DNA from: a bacterium
GTDB lineage: Bacteria; Patescibacteriota; UBA1384; JAGGWG01
Length of the DNA: 36,808 nucleotides
Direction of reading: 5' to 3'
NCBI GenBank assembly: GCA_021157605.1
Contig: JAGGWG010000021.1
Location: 1 to 36,808 of the forward strand
Under the pieces are notes generated by a model that was not told where the DNA came from, ran no database searches, and was given only the letters and a program-made list of their open reading frames with translations. Positions 1,509 to 15,987 of the stretch are shown in pieces. The translations under genes were made by a program, and so were the position numbers. Position 1 is the first letter of the stretch. Each line of letters opens with the position of its first letter.

Positions 1509-2645
1509 TTACGGCTTCCAAATGTAAATTTCGGAGTTATCAATACCATTATCCCAGACAATTATGTTTTGGTCATTAATAAAGTATGAATCGGGTTGGC
1601 AGTTGTCAATAACTTTTTTCATTGTTTCGTGCCAGATATAGATTTTTCCGGGGGTGCCGCCATAGTAATCTGTCCATACTACCCAGCCATTATTGTTGAT
1701 AACTGGGTTGCGGCCAGCACCAAGAGGGAGAATTTCCCCTTCCCGATAAAGATAAACTACTCCTTCAGCGGGGTTGTGCCAGACAATTTCTCCGCGGTTG
1801 TTTATTTTTGGTTGGGACCAGCCTGTCGCCTGATCGTTGATTTCTCTTTTTCTTCTCCCGTTCCCGTCCCAAAGCATAATTCGGGCATTGGCAATTTTGA
1901 GATTATAAGGAGAGTAAGGGCCTTCTATCTCTGTCCACACTATCCAGCCGTTGTCATTAATGTCAGGGTGGAGATTGGTTGAGTGGTTTTGGGTGATAAA
2001 TCTCCAACCTTGCTCCTCAAGATCGAGGGTGATGATTTGGGGATAGATCTCAGGTAAGGCTTTAGTTAGAAATAACTGGATTTCAGATGTTTTTTGAGGA
2101 GGTTGGTTTGGGTTAGTAGAAAAAGATGTCCAGACAATGGTGTCGCTTTTTAGAGCAAATCTGTCTTCTCCAGGCTGTTGGTTAACAAAGAAGTATTGTG
2201 TCCCCCGAGGAGAGATAAGACCCATGGTTGAGGTACGCTCTAGAATATTTTCGTCAATCTGCATTGTTTGTGAATATAAAAGATAGACTATCCATCCCGA
2301 AGCGCTTATCGACATATGGGAGACAGGTCCATTTATTGTGATAATAGGTTTCATTTCTGAAGAATCTCGAGAAAATTCTTTAATTATGGTAGAGTTTCCT
2401 TCTATTCTTTCACACCAAAGAATCCGTGGTCTGAAGGGATCAATTTTCCCTAAAAAGATGTGGTCAGATATATGGATTGTTTCTTTATCCAAACCACAGT
2501 ACAAAACCAGGGCTTTGCTCTCGCCTAAATCTTGAATAACAAGAACCTGTTCCTTATTAATATCTTGGAGCGACATCCCTGTTCCGTAGATAACAGGAAG
2601 TTTGGCGAACGAGCCCAGCAAAACAGCAGTCAAAATATAAGACAT
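1509..2645 (-). CDS. Secreted beta-propeller-like repeat protein (paralog 2)
   Basis: This 378-residue protein begins with a signal-peptide-like segment (MSYILTAVLLGSFAKLPVIYG). Propeller-type repeats follow, with units such as NDNGWIVWTE, NNRGEIVWHN and NNNGWVVWTD, each followed by an I/V-Y-L/I-W/Y strand. It is a clear paralog of the gene at 187-1359, and both end in I/L-W-K-P. The number of units suggests six or seven blades, but this was judged by eye only. It has its own promoter, a strong SD and a terminator. It is divergent from tuf, a position often held by str-operon genes in other bacteria, so the pair looks like an accessory insertion next to the ribosomal locus. The function is unknown; a surface or periplasmic binding role is inferred. 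Confidence 0.8.
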   Translation of the reverse strand: MSYILTAVLLGSFAKLPVIYGTGMSLQDINKEQVLVIQDLGESKALVLYCGLDKETIHISDHIFLGKIDPFRPRILWCERIEGNSTIIKEFSRDSSEMKPIITINGPVSHMSISASGWIVYLLYSQTMQIDENILERTSTMGLISPRGTQYFFVNQQPGEDRFALKSDTIVWTSFSTNPNQPPQKTSEIQLFLTKALPEIYPQIITLDLEEQGWRFITQNHSTNLHPDINDNGWIVWTEIEGPYSPYNLKIANARIMLWDGNGRRKREINDQATGWSQPKINNRGEIVWHNPAEGVVYLYREGEILPLGAGRNPVINNNGWVVWTDYYGGTPGKIYIWHETMKKVIDNCQPDSYFINDQNIIVWDNGIDNSEIYIWKP

Positions 2646-2650
2646 TTTCC

Positions 2651-2662
2651 TTCCTCCTTTTT
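2651..2662 (-). promoter_or_regulatory. Strong Shine-Dalgarno site of propeller paralog 2
   Basis: The minus strand reads AAAAAGGAGGAA, with the GGAGG core ending 7 nt before the ATG at 2645. Together with the site at 1367-1375 it shows that canonical SD initiation is used by these exported proteins. Confidence 0.85.
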
Positions 2663-2683
2663 AAGGAACTCAGATCTGTTTTT

Positions 2684-2712
2684 AAAATGGTTTATTTTTT
2701 GCCAAAAGTCAA
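2684..2712 (-). promoter_or_regulatory. Sigma70-type promoter of propeller paralog 2
   Basis: On the minus strand a TTGACT -35 box, a 17-nt spacer and a CATTTT -10 box lie upstream of the SD and ATG. The -35 context (AATTGACTT) matches paralog 1. It is back-to-back with the tuf promoter at 2755-2783. Confidence 0.65.
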
Positions 2713-2754
2713 TTATTGCCTTTTTGTGGGTGAGAACAAAGAATTTTTAAAGGG

Positions 2755-2783
2755 TTGACAGATAGAAAATAAGGCGTTAATAT
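2755..2783 (+). promoter_or_regulatory. Strong promoter of tuf and the ribosomal operon
   Basis: A perfect TTGACA -35 box is followed after exactly 17 nt by TAATAT. The predicted start is near 2790, giving an 85-nt leader to the tuf ATG at 2875. The leader has a small inverted repeat (CTTGC 2792-2796 / GCAAG 2808-2812) and an AAAAACTAA element at 2856-2864, but no SD. Confidence 0.85.
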
Positions 2784-2874
2784 TATTTTTGCTTGCTTTT
2801 TAATCAGGCAAGTGTTAGAGTTATCTTAAATTGGCTTCTGTATTTATTTTTGTTCAAAAACTAAGTTTAAGATT

Positions 2875-4065
2875 ATGGCAGAGAAAAAATTCGAACGGAA
2901 AAAGCCCCACATCAATGTGGGAACTATTGGTCACGTTGACCATGGTAAAACCACTCTTACAGCAGCTATTTTGAAAACTTGTAAGGCTCAAGGGTGGTAT
3001 GCTGAAGAGAGAAGCGTGGATCAAATTGACAATGCTCCTGAGGAAAAAGAAAGAGGAGTGACCATTAATTTGGCTCACGTTGAGTATGAAACTGAAAAAT
3101 ATCACGTTGCCCATATTGATGCTCCGGGTCACGCTGATTACGTTAAAAATATGATTACTGGGGCAGCCCAGATGGATGTAGCTATTTTGGTTGTTTCTGC
3201 TCCTGACGGTCCTATGCCTCAGACTAGAGAACACATTCTTTTAGCCAAACAGGTTGGGGTAAAGAATATGATTGTTTTTCTTAACAAGATTGACCAAGTG
3301 GATGATGAAGAGTTAGTGGGTTTAGTTGAAGAGGAAGTCAAAGATCTTTTGAAAAAATATGAGTATGATCCAGCCAAAATCCCCTTTGTTAGAGGCAGTG
3401 CTCTAAAAGCTTTAGAAGCTGATGGCAAAGGAGACGATGCCAAGCCTATTATTGAGCTTTTGGGCAAAATTGATGAAACCCCTGAACCCAAACGCGATGC
3501 TGATAAGCCATTCTTGATGCCTGTTGAGGATGTTTTCTCTATTTCTGGACGAGGTACTGTTGCTACCGGAAGAGTTGAAAGAGGTAAACTCACCCTTAAT
3601 GAAGAGGTGGAGTTGGTTGGTTTAGGGGAAACCAAGAAGACAGTTATTACTGGAATTGAAATGTTCCGCAAGAGTATGGACGAATGTCAAGCTGGTGATA
3701 ATGTAGGTTTACTACTTAGGGGCGTAGAAAAAGATGAGATAGAAAGAGGTCAGGTTATCGCCAAACCGGGTTCAATTACACCTCACACTGAGTTTGAAGC
3801 TGAAATCTATATTTTGACCAAGGAGGAAGGTGGACGCCATACTCCATTTATGCAAGGGTATAAACCTCAATTTTATATCCGCACTGCTGATGTTACTGGC
3901 GAAATTGAGCTACCTAAAGATGTCGAAATGGTGATGCCCGGAGATACAATAAAGGTGAATGTTAAATTGCAGAAACCCGTAGCTTTAGAAGAGAAGATGC
4001 GCTTTGCCTTACGGGAAGGTGGCAAGACTGTAGGCGCAGGTGTAGTAGTTAAGATCACCAAATAA
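2875..4065 (+). CDS. tuf: Elongation factor Tu
   Basis: EF-Tu is a GTPase that delivers aminoacyl-tRNA to the ribosomal A site. At 396 residues it has normal length. The G domain shows GHVDHGKT (residues 19-26), the switch I segment ending RGVTIN, DAPGH (82-86) and NKID (137-140). Domains 2 and 3 follow, with [13 protein letters not shown] and the C-terminal P-G-D ... [14 protein letters not shown] segment. The start is the ATG giving [12 protein letters not shown]; there is no SD, but AAAAACTAA lies 10 nt upstream. It is the first gene after a strong promoter and precedes rpsJ by 86 nt. The usual rpsL, rpsG and fusA neighbours are absent; two propeller genes are next door instead. Confidence 0.98.
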
Positions 4066-4087: not shown

Positions 4088-4112
4088 AGAGCGCCCCATA
4101 AAGGGGCGCTCT
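4088..4112. other. Strong hairpin between tuf and rpsJ
   Basis: A perfect 10-bp stem (AGAGCGCCCC / GGGGCGCTCT) has the 5-nt loop ATAAA. Neither side has a real T run, so it is not a classical terminator. It may stabilise the tuf mRNA 3' end, mark a processing site, or act as a weak attenuator that lets tuf be expressed above rpsJ. A four-codon frame (ATG at 4073, TAG at 4085-4087) ends exactly at the stem base, possibly by chance. Confidence 0.6.
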
Positions 4113-4151: not shown

Positions 4152-4466
4152 ATGCCCAAGAAAAGCCAACGAATCAGGATCAAGCTTAAAGCATACGATG
4201 CTCGTGTTTTAGACAAAACTGTTGAAACCATCATTAAAACAGCTGAGGAAACAGGCTCTATTGTTGTCGGTCCGATTCCTTTGCCTTGTGAGCGTCGCCT
4301 TTATACGGTTCAGCGTTCAAGCTTTATTAAAAAAGATTCCCGAGAGCAGTTTGAAATGAGAGTTCATAAACGCTTGATTGAGATTAAAAACCCCACAGCC
4401 AAGACACTGGATGCCCTTTCAGGTTTAGAGATTCCTTCAGGGGTAGAAATCGAAATTAAAATGTAA
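4152..4466 (+). CDS. rpsJ: 30S ribosomal protein S10
   Basis: S10 is in the small-subunit head and also acts with NusB in transcription antitermination; nusB is in this window at 32477-32911. It has 104 residues, the usual length. Family features are [15 protein letters not shown] near the N-terminus, the GPIPLP turn, the R-R-x-Y-T-V-x-R-S segment around residues 50-57, and a C-terminal S-G-V-E-I-E-I-K. There is no SD; the start follows CAGAA. It is separated from rplC by a 124-nt region that holds a candidate attenuator, whereas the following genes are nearly contiguous. Confidence 0.97.
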
Positions 4467-4485
4467 ATTTAAATCAAGTTTAAAA

Positions 4486-4524
4486 ATGGAGACAAATAAC
4501 AAAAATTGGAGAGAGATTCCTTGA
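4486..4524 (+). CDS. Candidate leader peptide (12 residues) of the rplC attenuator
   Basis: A short frame starting at ATG 4486 encodes METNNKNWREIP and stops at TGA 4522-4524. It begins 19 nt after the rpsJ stop. The sequence before it, CAAGTTTAAAA, resembles the AAGTTTA part of the tuf and rpoA upstream elements. The stop codon overlaps the 5' arm of the antiterminator (4521-4529), as in leader peptides of translation-coupled attenuators. Three of its 12 codons are Asn. No homology can be judged at this length, so translation is inferred from position only. Confidence 0.4.
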   Translation: METNNKNWREIP

Positions 4525-4559
4525 GGCGGAAAGTATGGTGATTGATTAGGCCGCCTCGA
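4521..4559 (+). promoter_or_regulatory. Candidate antiterminator hairpin upstream of rplC
   Basis: TTGAGGCGG (4521-4529) can pair with CCGCCTCGA (4551-4559): seven perfect pairs plus a G-U and an A-U, with a 21-nt loop. The 3' arm overlaps the 5' arm of the terminator at 4548-4572, so the two structures are mutually exclusive. A ribosome at the leader-ORF stop codon would cover the 5' arm. Confidence 0.6.
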
Positions 4560-4572
4560 GGGCGGCTTTTTT
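4548..4572 (+). terminator. Intrinsic terminator (attenuator) between rpsJ and rplC
   Basis: GCCGCC (4550-4555) pairs with GGCGGC (4561-4566) around TCGAG. The stem can extend by two pairs into the T run, and is followed by six T (4567-4572). It is a textbook intrinsic terminator placed inside a ribosomal-protein operon, 18 nt before the rplC start. No good promoter was found between it and rplC, so readthrough must be allowed and probably controlled. Confidence 0.8.
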
Positions 4573-4590
4573 CAATTATAAGGAAGATTT

Positions 4591-13295: not shown

Positions 13296-14585
13296 ATGTG
13301 GGCAACACTTAAAAAGATTATTGCTCACCCAGATTTAAGGGCAAAAATTATTTATACTTTTTTGCTTTTGGTGTTGGTAAGAGTATTGGCTCATATCCCT
13401 TTACCCGGAGTTGATATAGGTACTTTAAAACATTTTTTCTCTCAAAATCAGCTTTTTGGTTTGTTGAATATGTTTTCCGGCGGGACAATGGAAAACTTTT
13501 CTATTGTGTTAATGGGTGTAGGTCCTTATATTACGGCTTCAATTATTATTCAGTTATTGACAATGGTAGTGCCTTCACTTGAGGCTTTGAGCAAAGAAGG
13601 CGAGTACGGTTATCGAAAAATTAATCAATATACCCGTATTTTTACCGTTCCTTTAGCTGCTCTTCAGTCTTTAGGTATGATTTCTATTTTAAAACAGGGC
13701 GTTCAAGGAGTTCAAATTAATATTTCTGGGATGGATCTTTTTTTAGCGATTGTAGTGGTAACCGCTGGTACAATGCTTTTGATGTGGATAGGAGAGTTGA
13801 TTTCTGAAAACGGGATTGGCAACGGCATTTCTCTTATTATTACATTGGGTATTATTGCTGGTATCCCGGGGATGATTAAAAACACTGCTTTGGTTCTTTT
13901 TGGGGAAGGAGCTTGGGATTTTTCTAAAATTATTAGCTTGTTAGTTTTTGTGGCTGTGATTTTAGCTGTTATCTTTATTATTATTTTTTTTCAGGAAGCA
14001 GAAAGGCGCATTCCAGTTACTTATACACGGAGAGTAAGGGGGAGGCGTTTAGTAGGGGGAGTAGATACCTATTTGCCTCTTCGCCCGGCTCAAGCCGGAG
14101 TAATCCCCATTATTTTCGCTCTTTCTATCTTGCTTTTTCCCTCTTCTATTGCCCAGTTTTTACAGACTGCTCGTTCAGAAGCTGTTGCCAATATAGCTGA
14201 AAAAATAAGTGCTTTTTTGGCTAATGATATAACCTATAGCTCCTTGTATTTTCTTTTCACTTTTCTTTTTACCTTTTTCTATACAGGGATAATTTTTAAC
14301 CCCCAACGAATAGCGGAGAATCTACAAAAACAGGGAGGGTATATATTTGGAGTTAGGCCTGGTAAAGAAACCCAGAACTATTTGGCTGATATTATGTATA
14401 AAGTGACTACCATAGGAGCGGTTTTTTTGGCTGTAATTGCGGTTTTGCCTTTTGTTTTAAGAAAAATGACTGGTTTAACCACTATTGCTATAGGAGGTAC
14501 AGGTCTTTTAATTATGGTTTCAGTGGTTCTGGAAACAAGTGAGCAATTTAAAGCTATGCTTTTAATGCGCCAATATGAAGAGTAA
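13296..14585 (+). CDS. secY: Protein translocase subunit SecY
   Basis: SecY is the channel of the Sec translocon in the inner membrane. It has 429 residues with about ten hydrophobic segments. Recognisable family parts are R-V-L-A-H-I-P-L-P-G-V-D in TM1, N-M-F-S-G-G-T in the plug region, I-T-A-S-I-I-I-Q-L-L (TM2b), E-x-G-I-G-N-G-I-S, R-R-I-P-V-T-Y near residue 240, and P-L-R-P-A-Q-A-G-V-I-P-I-I-F-A. It overlaps the next gene by 11 nt. The secreted propeller proteins nearby would be substrates. Confidence 0.97.
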   Translation: MWATLKKIIAHPDLRAKIIYTFLLLVLVRVLAHIPLPGVDIGTLKHFFSQNQLFGLLNMFSGGTMENFSIVLMGVGPYITASIIIQLLTMVVPSLEALSKEGEYGYRKINQYTRIFTVPLAALQSLGMISILKQGVQGVQINISGMDLFLAIVVVTAGTMLLMWIGELISENGIGNGISLIITLGIIAGIPGMIKNTALVLFGEGAWDFSKIISLLVFVAVILAVIFIIIFFQEAERRIPVTYTRRVRGRRLVGGVDTYLPLRPAQAGVIPIIFALSILLFPSSIAQFLQTARSEAVANIAEKISAFLANDITYSSLYFLFTFLFTFFYTGIIFNPQRIAENLQKQGGYIFGVRPGKETQNYLADIMYKVTTIGAVFLAVIAVLPFVLRKMTGLTTIAIGGTGLLIMVSVVLETSEQFKAMLLMRQYEE

Positions 14586-15987
14586 ATTTTTGGCTGTTGG
14601 ACCCAATCCCGGCAAAGATTTAGTGGCCAATGAAGGAGGTGTTTTTTGGGCGCGCTACCCTATAAAATCCCCTCTTATTACTGAAAAAACAGATTTGATA
14701 GCAGTTTTAAAGAAAAAGGCAAAACCATTGTTGAAAAAGGGGGATATACTGGCAATTTCAGAAAAGGTAGTGGCTATTTGGCAAAAGAGATCTTGGCCTT
14801 TGGGCGAGATTGAACCTTCTTTTTGGGCTAGGTTCTTAAGCCGTTTTGTCACTAAAAGCGACAAGGGAATCGGTATTTCTATACCTGAGACTTTTGAGTT
14901 GGCTATTCGCGTAGCTGGTTTGTGGAGGATTATTTTGGCTTCTATCTTTTCGGCTCTAACCAAACCATTAGGTATAAAAGGAGTTTTTTACCGGATTGCC
15001 GGACGCCAAGTTGCGATGATTGACGGTCCGGTAGATTATGCTTTGCCTCCATATAATCGTTATGTTTCTTTGGGTCCCAAAGATCCCAATGCAAGCGCTG
15101 AATCTATCAGCGAAAAATTAGGTTTTCCTTTAGTGGCTATTGTTGATGCTAATGATTATGGGATTGAAGTTGTGGGAATGAGCAAAAATCTTTTGGTTAA
15201 CCGCAGAGTAATGGTTCGTCTGCTTAAGGGTTTACTCAAAGATAATCCAATGGGGCAGACAGATGAGCAGACACCTTTTTTAATTTTGCGGAAAATATCT
15301 CGCTATAAAAAAGAAACACTAAATCTTGTGTTTTTAGGTGATCCCGGGGCCGGAAAAGGAACTCAAGCGGAGATTTTAAAGCAGAAATATGGTTTTAATC
15401 ATTTATCACCCGGTGATCTTTTCCGCAGGGAAATGAAAAAGGGTTCGAAAGTAGGGCAGATAATTGCCAGAAGATATAAAAAAGGCGAGCCTCAGCCTAA
15501 TGAGATAGTCAATCGTTTAGTTTTTAAAAAAGTAGAAGAGATTTTTAAAAAGAACAAACCTAAAGGTATTATTTTTGATATGTATCCCTTTAATCGAGTT
15601 CAGGCTCAAGCATTAAGGGGTATAGAAAAGGAATTCCATTTAAGTTATCCCTTAATTTTTTGGTTTAATGTTGATTCTAAAGAAGTAGTAAGACGGCTCA
15701 GTAAACGTTTAGTTTGTAGTAGTTGTCAAAAGGTTTTTATGGCTAACAAACTTTCTCAAGGTCTAAAGACTAAAAGGTGTCCTATTTGTAAAGGGCGGTT
15801 AGTTCGGCGGGAAGATGATTCTGCAGAAATTATTCGTAAACGAATCGCTTGGTATCAGGATATAAAAAAAGAACTCCGTTCTTTCTATTCTGTCTATCCT
15901 TTCTGGTTTGAGATAGATGCCAATCCTTCAGTTGAAAAGGTGGCGCAGCAGATTGAGCAAAAACTAAAACCTCTTTTAAATGTCTAA
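14575..15987 (+). CDS. CofE-like / adenylate kinase fusion protein
   Basis: This 470-residue protein has two parts. Residues 1-235 resemble F420-0:gamma-glutamyl ligase (CofE) family proteins, with GDILAISEKVVAI (56-68), DGPVDYALPPYNRYVSLGP (150-168) and VAIVDANDYGIEVVG (187-201). Residues 248-470 are adenylate kinase: P-loop GDPGAGKGTQ (255-264), AMP site S-P-G-D-L-F-R, a zinc LID with C381, C384, C402 and C405, and REDDSAEIIRKR. The usual G-F-P-R-T loop reads MYPFNR (336-341), so the arginine that contacts AMP (R88 in E. coli) is Phe339. The gene overlaps secY and map, the standard adk position. The N-terminal domain's substrate is unknown; F420 synthesis is not implied. Confidence 0.85.
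   Translation: MKSKFLAVGPNPGKDLVANEGGVFWARYPIKSPLITEKTDLIAVLKKKAKPLLKKGDILAISEKVVAIWQKRSWPLGEIEPSFWARFLSRFVTKSDKGIGISIPETFELAIRVAGLWRIILASIFSALTKPLGIKGVFYRIAGRQVAMIDGPVDYALPPYNRYVSLGPKDPNASAESISEKLGFPLVAIVDANDYGIEVVGMSKNLLVNRRVMVRLLKGLLKDNPMGQTDEQTPFLILRKISRYKKETLNLVFLGDPGAGKGTQAEILKQKYGFNHLSPGDLFRREMKKGSKVGQIIARRYKKGEPQPNEIVNRLVFKKVEEIFKKNKPKGIIFDMYPFNRVQAQALRGIEKEFHLSYPLIFWFNVDSKEVVRRLSKRLVCSSCQKVFMANKLSQGLKTKRCPICKGRLVRREDDSAEIIRKRIAWYQDIKKELRSFYSVYPFWFEIDANPSVEKVAQQIEQKLKPLLNV

Follow-up and report, generated by a model that had tools for sequence, protein, structure and literature searches.

How does a bacterium match the making of ribosomes to the number of ribosomes it already has? The question is an old one, and the usual answers are ppGpp, NTP levels and feedback by ribosomal proteins. 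A 124-nt gap inside a ribosomal-protein operon of one patescibacterial genome raises it again. The gap, between rpsJ and rplC, holds a short reading frame, an antiterminator and an intrinsic terminator. Could these elements together report the state of translation to the genes that follow?

Results

A terminator and an antiterminator between rpsJ and rplC

The gap occupies positions 4467–4590 of the window, the whole stretch of 36,808 nucleotides that was analysed. It comes from contig C21 of the patescibacterial genome G000 (575 kb, 96% complete). Genes on the contig run tuf, rpsJ, rplC, rplD, rplW, rplB and, further on, secY, adk and map; reading the ORFs bears out the rplC-to-map order given by the initial annotation. 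Upstream lies rpsJ (S10; 4152–4466, forward strand), a 104-aa ORF whose product matches itself at 100% and the S10 proteins of relatives at about 53–64% identity. The first gene 3' of the gap element is rplC (L3; 4591–5226, forward strand, 211 aa), which has relatives in 57 of 61 genomes. Its Shine–Dalgarno sequence, AAGGAAG (4580–4586, forward strand, read directly), lies outside both the terminator and the antiterminator.

The surrounding DNA has features of its own. The tuf–rpsJ gap contains a strong 10-bp hairpin at 4088–4112 (AGAGCGCCCC/GGGGCGCTCT) without a good U-tract. At 14575–15987, a 470-aa protein carries its adenylate kinase domain as the C-terminal half; by eye, the N-terminal half is a candidate coenzyme F420-0 ligase (CofE-like).

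The competing structures of the gap are real. Both reading and folding confirm the intrinsic terminator that had been annotated in the 124 nt (GCCGCC-TCGAG-GGCGGC and six T; 4550–4572, forward strand), with its hairpin at 4550–4566 and its T run at 4567–4572. In isolation the hairpin folds at −16.1 kcal/mol (z −3.7). The antiterminator had been described as a pairing of 4521–4529 with 4551–4559, which is its correct core, but the actual pairing is larger and takes in the U-tract. On folding, it consists of two 12-bp helices on the forward strand. The inner one joins a 5' arm at 4518–4529 (UCCUUGAGGCGG) to 4551–4562, and so overlaps the 5' arm and loop of the terminator. The outer one joins 4504–4515 to 4566–4577, a 3' arm that contains the U-tract (4567–4572) and thus sequesters it.

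Such overlap between the arms of an intrinsic terminator and an antiterminator is the mark of trp-type attenuators, and shuffled sequences rarely reproduce it here. With the terminator fixed, the antiterminator pairing had p 0.002 over 500 dinucleotide shuffles of the upstream part. The minimum free energy of the whole gap is −33.2 kcal/mol (z −3.9), a value equalled by 0 of 200 shuffles. A first scan of the genome placed the site 4th among 84 terminator-like sites. Scanning the window gap, the rplC leaders and the 23S leaders against Rfam gave no match at gathering score, and elsewhere only tRNA and LSU rRNA.

A candidate leader ORF that ends in the antiterminator arm

The 12-codon frame of the initial annotation is present in the window (METNNKNWREIP; 4486–4524, forward strand, direct reading): ATG GAG ACA AAT AAC AAA AAT TGG AGA GAG ATT CCT TGA. 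Its stop codon, at 4522–4524, falls within the antiterminator 5' arm. An SD-like GGAG lies inside the frame at 4508–4511 (forward strand, direct reading), 10 nt 5' of that stop. As lone evidence the frame is weak. An ATG frame of 8–18 codons ends there in 10.5% of shuffles, so that the ORF by itself is not significant, and the window sequence has no Shine–Dalgarno element before the ATG at 4486. The ATG does lie only 19 nt past the rpsJ stop codon, which makes reinitiation after rpsJ possible. Unlike the 23S leaders described below, the ORF has no promoter-like site just upstream and is internal to the tuf-rpsJ-rplC unit.

Two other frames were considered as leaders and dropped, neither being conserved. 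They are a TTG frame at 4506–4541 (LERDSLRRKVW) and a mini-ORF, ATG GTG ATT GAT TAG, at 4535–4549.

Compensatory changes before rplC in two relatives

We read 55 rplC upstream regions, including that of the window; the class was represented by 55 genomes. A search for L3 across genome contigs returned mostly Firmicutes and other phyla, and only L032, which is the contig of G004, added anything. The rpsJ/rplC region is missing from G001, the only same-family genome compared.

Among the 55 regions, a terminator with a significant antiterminator stands before rplC in G000, G004 (L003, also L032) and G018 (L004) only (antiterminator p 0.002, 0.04–0.05 and 0.002, respectively). The terminator of L003 and L004 has the same position as that of the window. 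The three genomes differ in arm sequence, and the best partner of each 5' arm is the terminator arm of the same genome. The compensatory changes that the initial annotation proposed to look for in this gap are thus found in the two nearest relatives that have the locus, and these relatives keep the antiterminator as well as the terminator.

At the arm, all three leaders also carry an SD-like element followed by a stop codon, namely GGAG...TGA in the window, GGAGGUGUU-TAG and GGGAGGUG-TGA in the relatives. Conservation does not extend cleanly to the start of the ORF, although the terminator, the antiterminator and the stop codon in the arm are all kept. The start codon is ATG in the window and TTG in G004 (LEFIKDGGV), and the G018 frame has no ATG, GTG or TTG. 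Because of these differences, and of the roughly 10% chance of such a frame, translation of the 12-codon window frame remains putative.

Many members of the class carry another hairpin before rplC, with conserved internal-loop strands GGAUAAC (5') and GGUUCC (3'); examples are L005, L009, L013, L014, L018, L021, L028, L113, L114, L119 and L126, among others. MAFFT with RNAalifold found no consensus for it because its loops vary, and a permutation test on the basal stem was used instead. The stem covaries (self-pairing −8.2 vs −5.7 kcal/mol; 0 of 20,000 permutations) among 23 sequences that were picked by eye. The hairpin has no Rfam match and, by inspection, is absent from the window gap at 4467–4590. 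It resembles a ribosomal-protein leader and may be regarded as a candidate for one.

The same layout precedes 23S rRNA

A scan of the whole G000 genome ranked one site just above that of the window. This site, C16:40271, is flanked by a TTGACA-17-TAGAAT promoter on one side and by the 23S rRNA gene on the other; scanning and reading delimit the attenuator layout to contig C16:40198-40320 (L169:398-520). The leader ORF reads ATG ATA AAA GTA AAA TTT AAG GAG GCC ACT TAG (MIKVKFKEAT), with its stop at the edge of the antiterminator 5' arm. In this genome 16S and 23S are unlinked, about 10 kb apart.

Relatives repeat the arrangement. In the 23S leaders that we read (among L234-L253, L274-L293 and L301-L362) the recurrent order is promoter, mini-ORF, stop codon in the antiterminator arm, terminator, 23S. 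Nearly all of the 28 leader ORFs have 10–14 codons, a length with which the 12 codons of the window ORF agree, and most begin no more than about 12 nt from where a strong sigma-70-like promoter (TTGACA/TATAAT) is predicted to start transcription, and are thus near-leaderless. As at 23S, the window has its SD-like element and its stop codon by the antiterminator arm, ahead of the terminator (GGAG at 4508, TGA at 4522, arm 4518–4529). The peptides are mixed and have no amino acid in common, G, K and E being the commonest. Within the class they include MVINRKLEGEAT (G018), MDILQKFEGEEAT (G004), MLEKINSVWEGS (G017), MYGNYNLGEGACG (G030) and MLRKTQGGAG (G043), and outside it MRKNHILGFKDIGN (G068) and MRNTQTIEGAPQS (G182), each closed by a stop codon.

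With a permissive pattern, boxA-like boxes are found 3' of the terminator and before 23S in 29 of 29 leaders, and in 14 also before the terminator. From the boxes on the 3' side it would follow that polymerase reaches the terminator before rRNA antitermination loads.

The same automated test gave no significant attenuator in 16S leaders, which mostly lack the layout. By eye, near-leaderless mini-ORFs and pairing arms in the 16S leaders L256 (G002) and L264 (G017) resemble the 23S attenuator; they were not significant in the automated test. The 16S leader of G000 has a peculiarity of its own. In L168:9594-9743 (contig C16:29494-29643), a second copy of the initial 31 nt of 16S rRNA (97% identity) lies 149 nt upstream, and after it come a G+C-rich hairpin and a run of five T (GGCTGGCGGTCGCCGCCAGCGCCTTTTT). 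The repeat may be a decoy of the 16S 5' end, a duplication or an assembly artefact.

ORF placement and arm pairing at 23S exceed chance

We scored a terminator in 36 of 63 regions upstream of 23S. Antiterminator pairing reached p 0.05 or better against dinucleotide shuffles in 20 of these 36 (9 at the floor; median z −2.2). An ATG ORF of 8–18 codons ends in the arm in 16 of the 20 leaders with a significant antiterminator. Windows slid along the same sequences gave a mean of 1.8 and a maximum of 5 in 2000 trials, and shuffles gave 2.3–2.9. Repeating the analysis with looser limits returned 16 of 20 again (null 1.85), and in the 2000–3000 trials of the two analyses the null never exceeded 5. 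Of the 40 leaders in which the repeat scored a terminator, half had a non-significant antiterminator.

The pattern holds in genomes outside the class. A hold-out of 40 further Patescibacteria, run at nearly the same settings with distance limits of 40–340 instead of 60–330, gave 13 terminators, 7 of them with a significant antiterminator. An ORF was present in 5 of the 7 (null 0.67, maximum 3 in 3000 trials, p<0.001), and two of these five, G109 and G134, are congeneric, with leader peptides that are identical.

The arms at 23S also covary. On average, a 5' arm pairs with its own terminator arm at −15.4 kcal/mol and with those of other genomes at −11.4 kcal/mol (0 of 20,000 permutations), a result that also holds with one genome per family. 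The ORF set used for anatomy, covariation and footprint folding was chosen partly by eye; the counts of 16/20 and 5/7 were not.

Within G000 itself, 9 terminators have a significant antiterminator. Requiring an ORF, under limits relaxed to ATG, GTG or TTG starts and 8–25 codons, kept only the 23S site, the window site (via its TTG frame) and one 8-codon frame.

A leader of another kind lies at L151:1840-1990 (contig C15), in the gap from hisS to a 151-aa ORF. A leucine-rich frame ending in a stop codon (MSRLRTEILLLLLLVSPGEVSF) stands there with an antiterminator and a terminator. It looks like a classical leucine attenuator; no obvious leucine gene lies directly 3' of it.

A ribosome at the stop codon is predicted to favour the terminator

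What would a ribosome do to these structures? We masked the footprint that a ribosome would have with its A site on the stop codon and computed the probability of the terminator, P(terminator), from equilibrium folds, not kinetics. In the window, a footprint at the stop raised P(terminator) from 0.00 to 0.81. Across 27 leaders at 23S the mean rose from 0.26 to 0.81, with an increase in 26 and one of more than 0.3 in 18. The footprint had little effect in the 23S leaders of G000, G023, G033, G038, G074, G095 and G052b; in that of G000 the rise was slight, from 0.84 to 0.92, since the terminator is the preferred equilibrium fold there even without a ribosome.

Position matters. A footprint at the start codon leaves P(terminator) low (0.22 at 23S, 0.0 in the window). 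In the window it stays near 0 for a ribosome over any of the first six codons and switches once the ribosome is past codon 7.

Discussion

A probable translation-coupled attenuator

The element in the window is probably a transcription attenuator coupled to translation, by which free translation capacity is signalled to ribosome production. It would work as follows. RNA polymerase exits rpsJ and transcribes the leader that carries the mini-ORF. A ribosome that reaches the mini-ORF stop would mask the antiterminator 5' arm at 4518–4529; the terminator at 4550–4572 would then form and cut off the rplC operon. Were the mini-ORF left untranslated, or the ribosome held near its start, the antiterminator would engage the U-tract and the 5' arm of the terminator, letting transcription go on into rplC and the genes beyond. 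The net effect would be negative feedback from translation capacity on 23S rRNA and, in the lineage of G000, on the large ribosomal-protein operon. Since the same layout precedes 23S in G000 and in many Patescibacteria, 23S rRNA and the rplC operon may come under one kind of feedback.

A ribosome terminating at the leader stop was already the mechanism favoured in the initial annotation. The anatomy, the footprint folding, the compensatory changes in G004 and G018 and, above all, the layout at 23S support it; translation of the window frame itself is putative. It is before 23S rRNA that the layout mainly occurs, outside the single locus that the initial annotation covered. Sequence and statistics show both structures, their mutual exclusivity and their covariation, and at 23S also the ORF, the placement of its stop, the promoter and the internal SD-like element. 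That the mini-ORF is translated, which way the effect runs and what signal is sensed, we infer. At its own locus the window finding is moderately supported.

Alternative explanations

Could the leader sense small subunits directly? A free 30S might bind the SD-like stretch and block the antiterminator 5' arm, the mini-ORF being incidental or merely holding the terminating ribosome. We give this a small but real chance. The stretch adjoins or forms the arm (GGAG at 4508, GGAGGUG in the relatives, GGAGG in many 23S leaders), and SD-like sequence is commoner towards the ends of the 23S leader ORFs than in shuffles (Wilcoxon p 1.8e-5). The GGAGGUG in the arm of the G004 and G018 rplC leaders is moreover the exact complement of CACCUCC, and the G018 frame lacks a start codon. 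However, ATG ORFs of narrow length end in the arm far more often than chance allows, and the promoter spacing of the 23S leaders puts the ATG almost at the 5' end of the RNA. The leaders of family f20, and several from other classes, keep the ORF without any such SD-like element.

Autoregulation, in which L4, L3 or another ribosomal protein binds the leader and tips the balance between antiterminator and terminator, would suit an element located in a ribosomal-protein operon, the more so as most relatives carry the GGAUAAC/GGUUCC hairpin, so like a ribosomal-protein leader, before rplC. We consider it improbable here. The rplC leaders of G000, G004 and G018 share no conserved sequence or internal loop, inspection of the window gap finds no GGAUAA motif, Rfam offers no match, and the same layout at 23S would be left unexplained.

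Terminators within operons are common, and that of the window might be a constitutive, partial one that fixes how many tuf-rpsJ transcripts are made relative to rplC-map transcripts, with the antiterminator a by-product of repeated G+C-rich arms. This is very improbable, given an antiterminator pairing that beats shuffles and is kept by compensatory change, and stop codons that are placed non-randomly at 23S. Scarcely credible, finally, is trp-like stalling, a variant raised by the initial annotation in which a ribosome stalled at Asn codons 4, 5 and 7 would free the arm and turn the operon on: there are three Asn in 12 codons, and a footprint on them leaves the antiterminator largely intact, but Asn runs are not conserved, the mixed 23S leader peptides point to no single amino acid and the operon has no biosynthetic target.

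Relation to known attenuators and leaders

The attenuator reading, to which we return, has its closest model in the trp-type attenuators (the trp, his, leu and phe leaders). The element shares with them overlapping antiterminator and intrinsic-terminator arms, and has a short leader ORF, a candidate in the window but strongly supported at 23S, whose stop is placed so that a terminating ribosome would mask the antiterminator 5' arm. The likeness that had been claimed therefore holds for the overlapping arms and the ribosome-at-stop logic, but not for control codons or superattenuation. No codon run serves one amino acid, and the targets are 23S rRNA and a ribosomal-protein operon rather than biosynthetic genes. 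The predicted input is initiation or ribosome supply, not tRNA charging. Without translation, the antiterminator is the fold in most cases and superattenuation is lacking. A protector hairpin is likewise not indicated, P(terminator) without a ribosome being 0.00 in the window and averaging 0.26 at 23S.

In E. coli, according to Zengel and Lindahl as cited in PMC7186457, the S10-operon leader precedes rpsJ and mediates attenuation through L4. The window element would likewise attenuate an S10 ribosomal-protein operon through a terminator hairpin in leader RNA. Unlike the E. coli leader, it lies 3' of rpsJ and combines a candidate leader ORF with an antiterminator that competes with the terminator; no L4 site is evident in it. 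The toiL uORF of the E. coli topAI-yjhQ operon, which acts on topAI translation and Rho-dependent termination and senses stalled ribosomes (PMC12121999), offers another parallel: a short uORF that senses the state of translation via RNA structure and not via one amino acid. Here, in contrast to toiL, the terminator is intrinsic and the predicted signal is completed translation. Ribosomal-protein leaders, of which PMC7247131 gives 20 candidates and Rfam holds families, are also cis-acting RNAs before ribosomal-protein genes that feed back on ribosome components. They bind a ribosomal protein, often by rRNA mimicry, whereas the window element has no such motif and matches none of the Rfam families.

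Implications

Taken together, the 23S and rplC leaders seem to put translation-coupled attenuation to a widespread and so far undescribed use, the control of ribosome production. The searchable literature, with incomplete coverage, contains no earlier report of leader-ORF attenuation of rRNA, so that novelty is provisional. The attenuator is not tied to the loss of RelA/SpoT. No RelA/SpoT domain was detected in G000 (96% complete) or in eight genomes of family f15. Such a domain is present in 32 of 55 class genomes. Many other genomes with the attenuator have it, so its absence is not a condition for the attenuator.

We lean towards the view that in many Patescibacteria a leader mini-ORF controls 23S rRNA transcription, and in some the rplC operon too, by testing ribosome availability: translated, it would mean stop; untranslated, it would call for more ribosomes. 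If true, this would be a cis-acting sensor of ribosome abundance that needs neither ppGpp nor a ribosomal protein. Placed before rRNA, a leader ORF would be a direct gauge of translation capacity, with a cis effect on the transcription of rRNA. The prediction covers a very large bacterial branch whose members have small genomes and are for the most part uncultivated.
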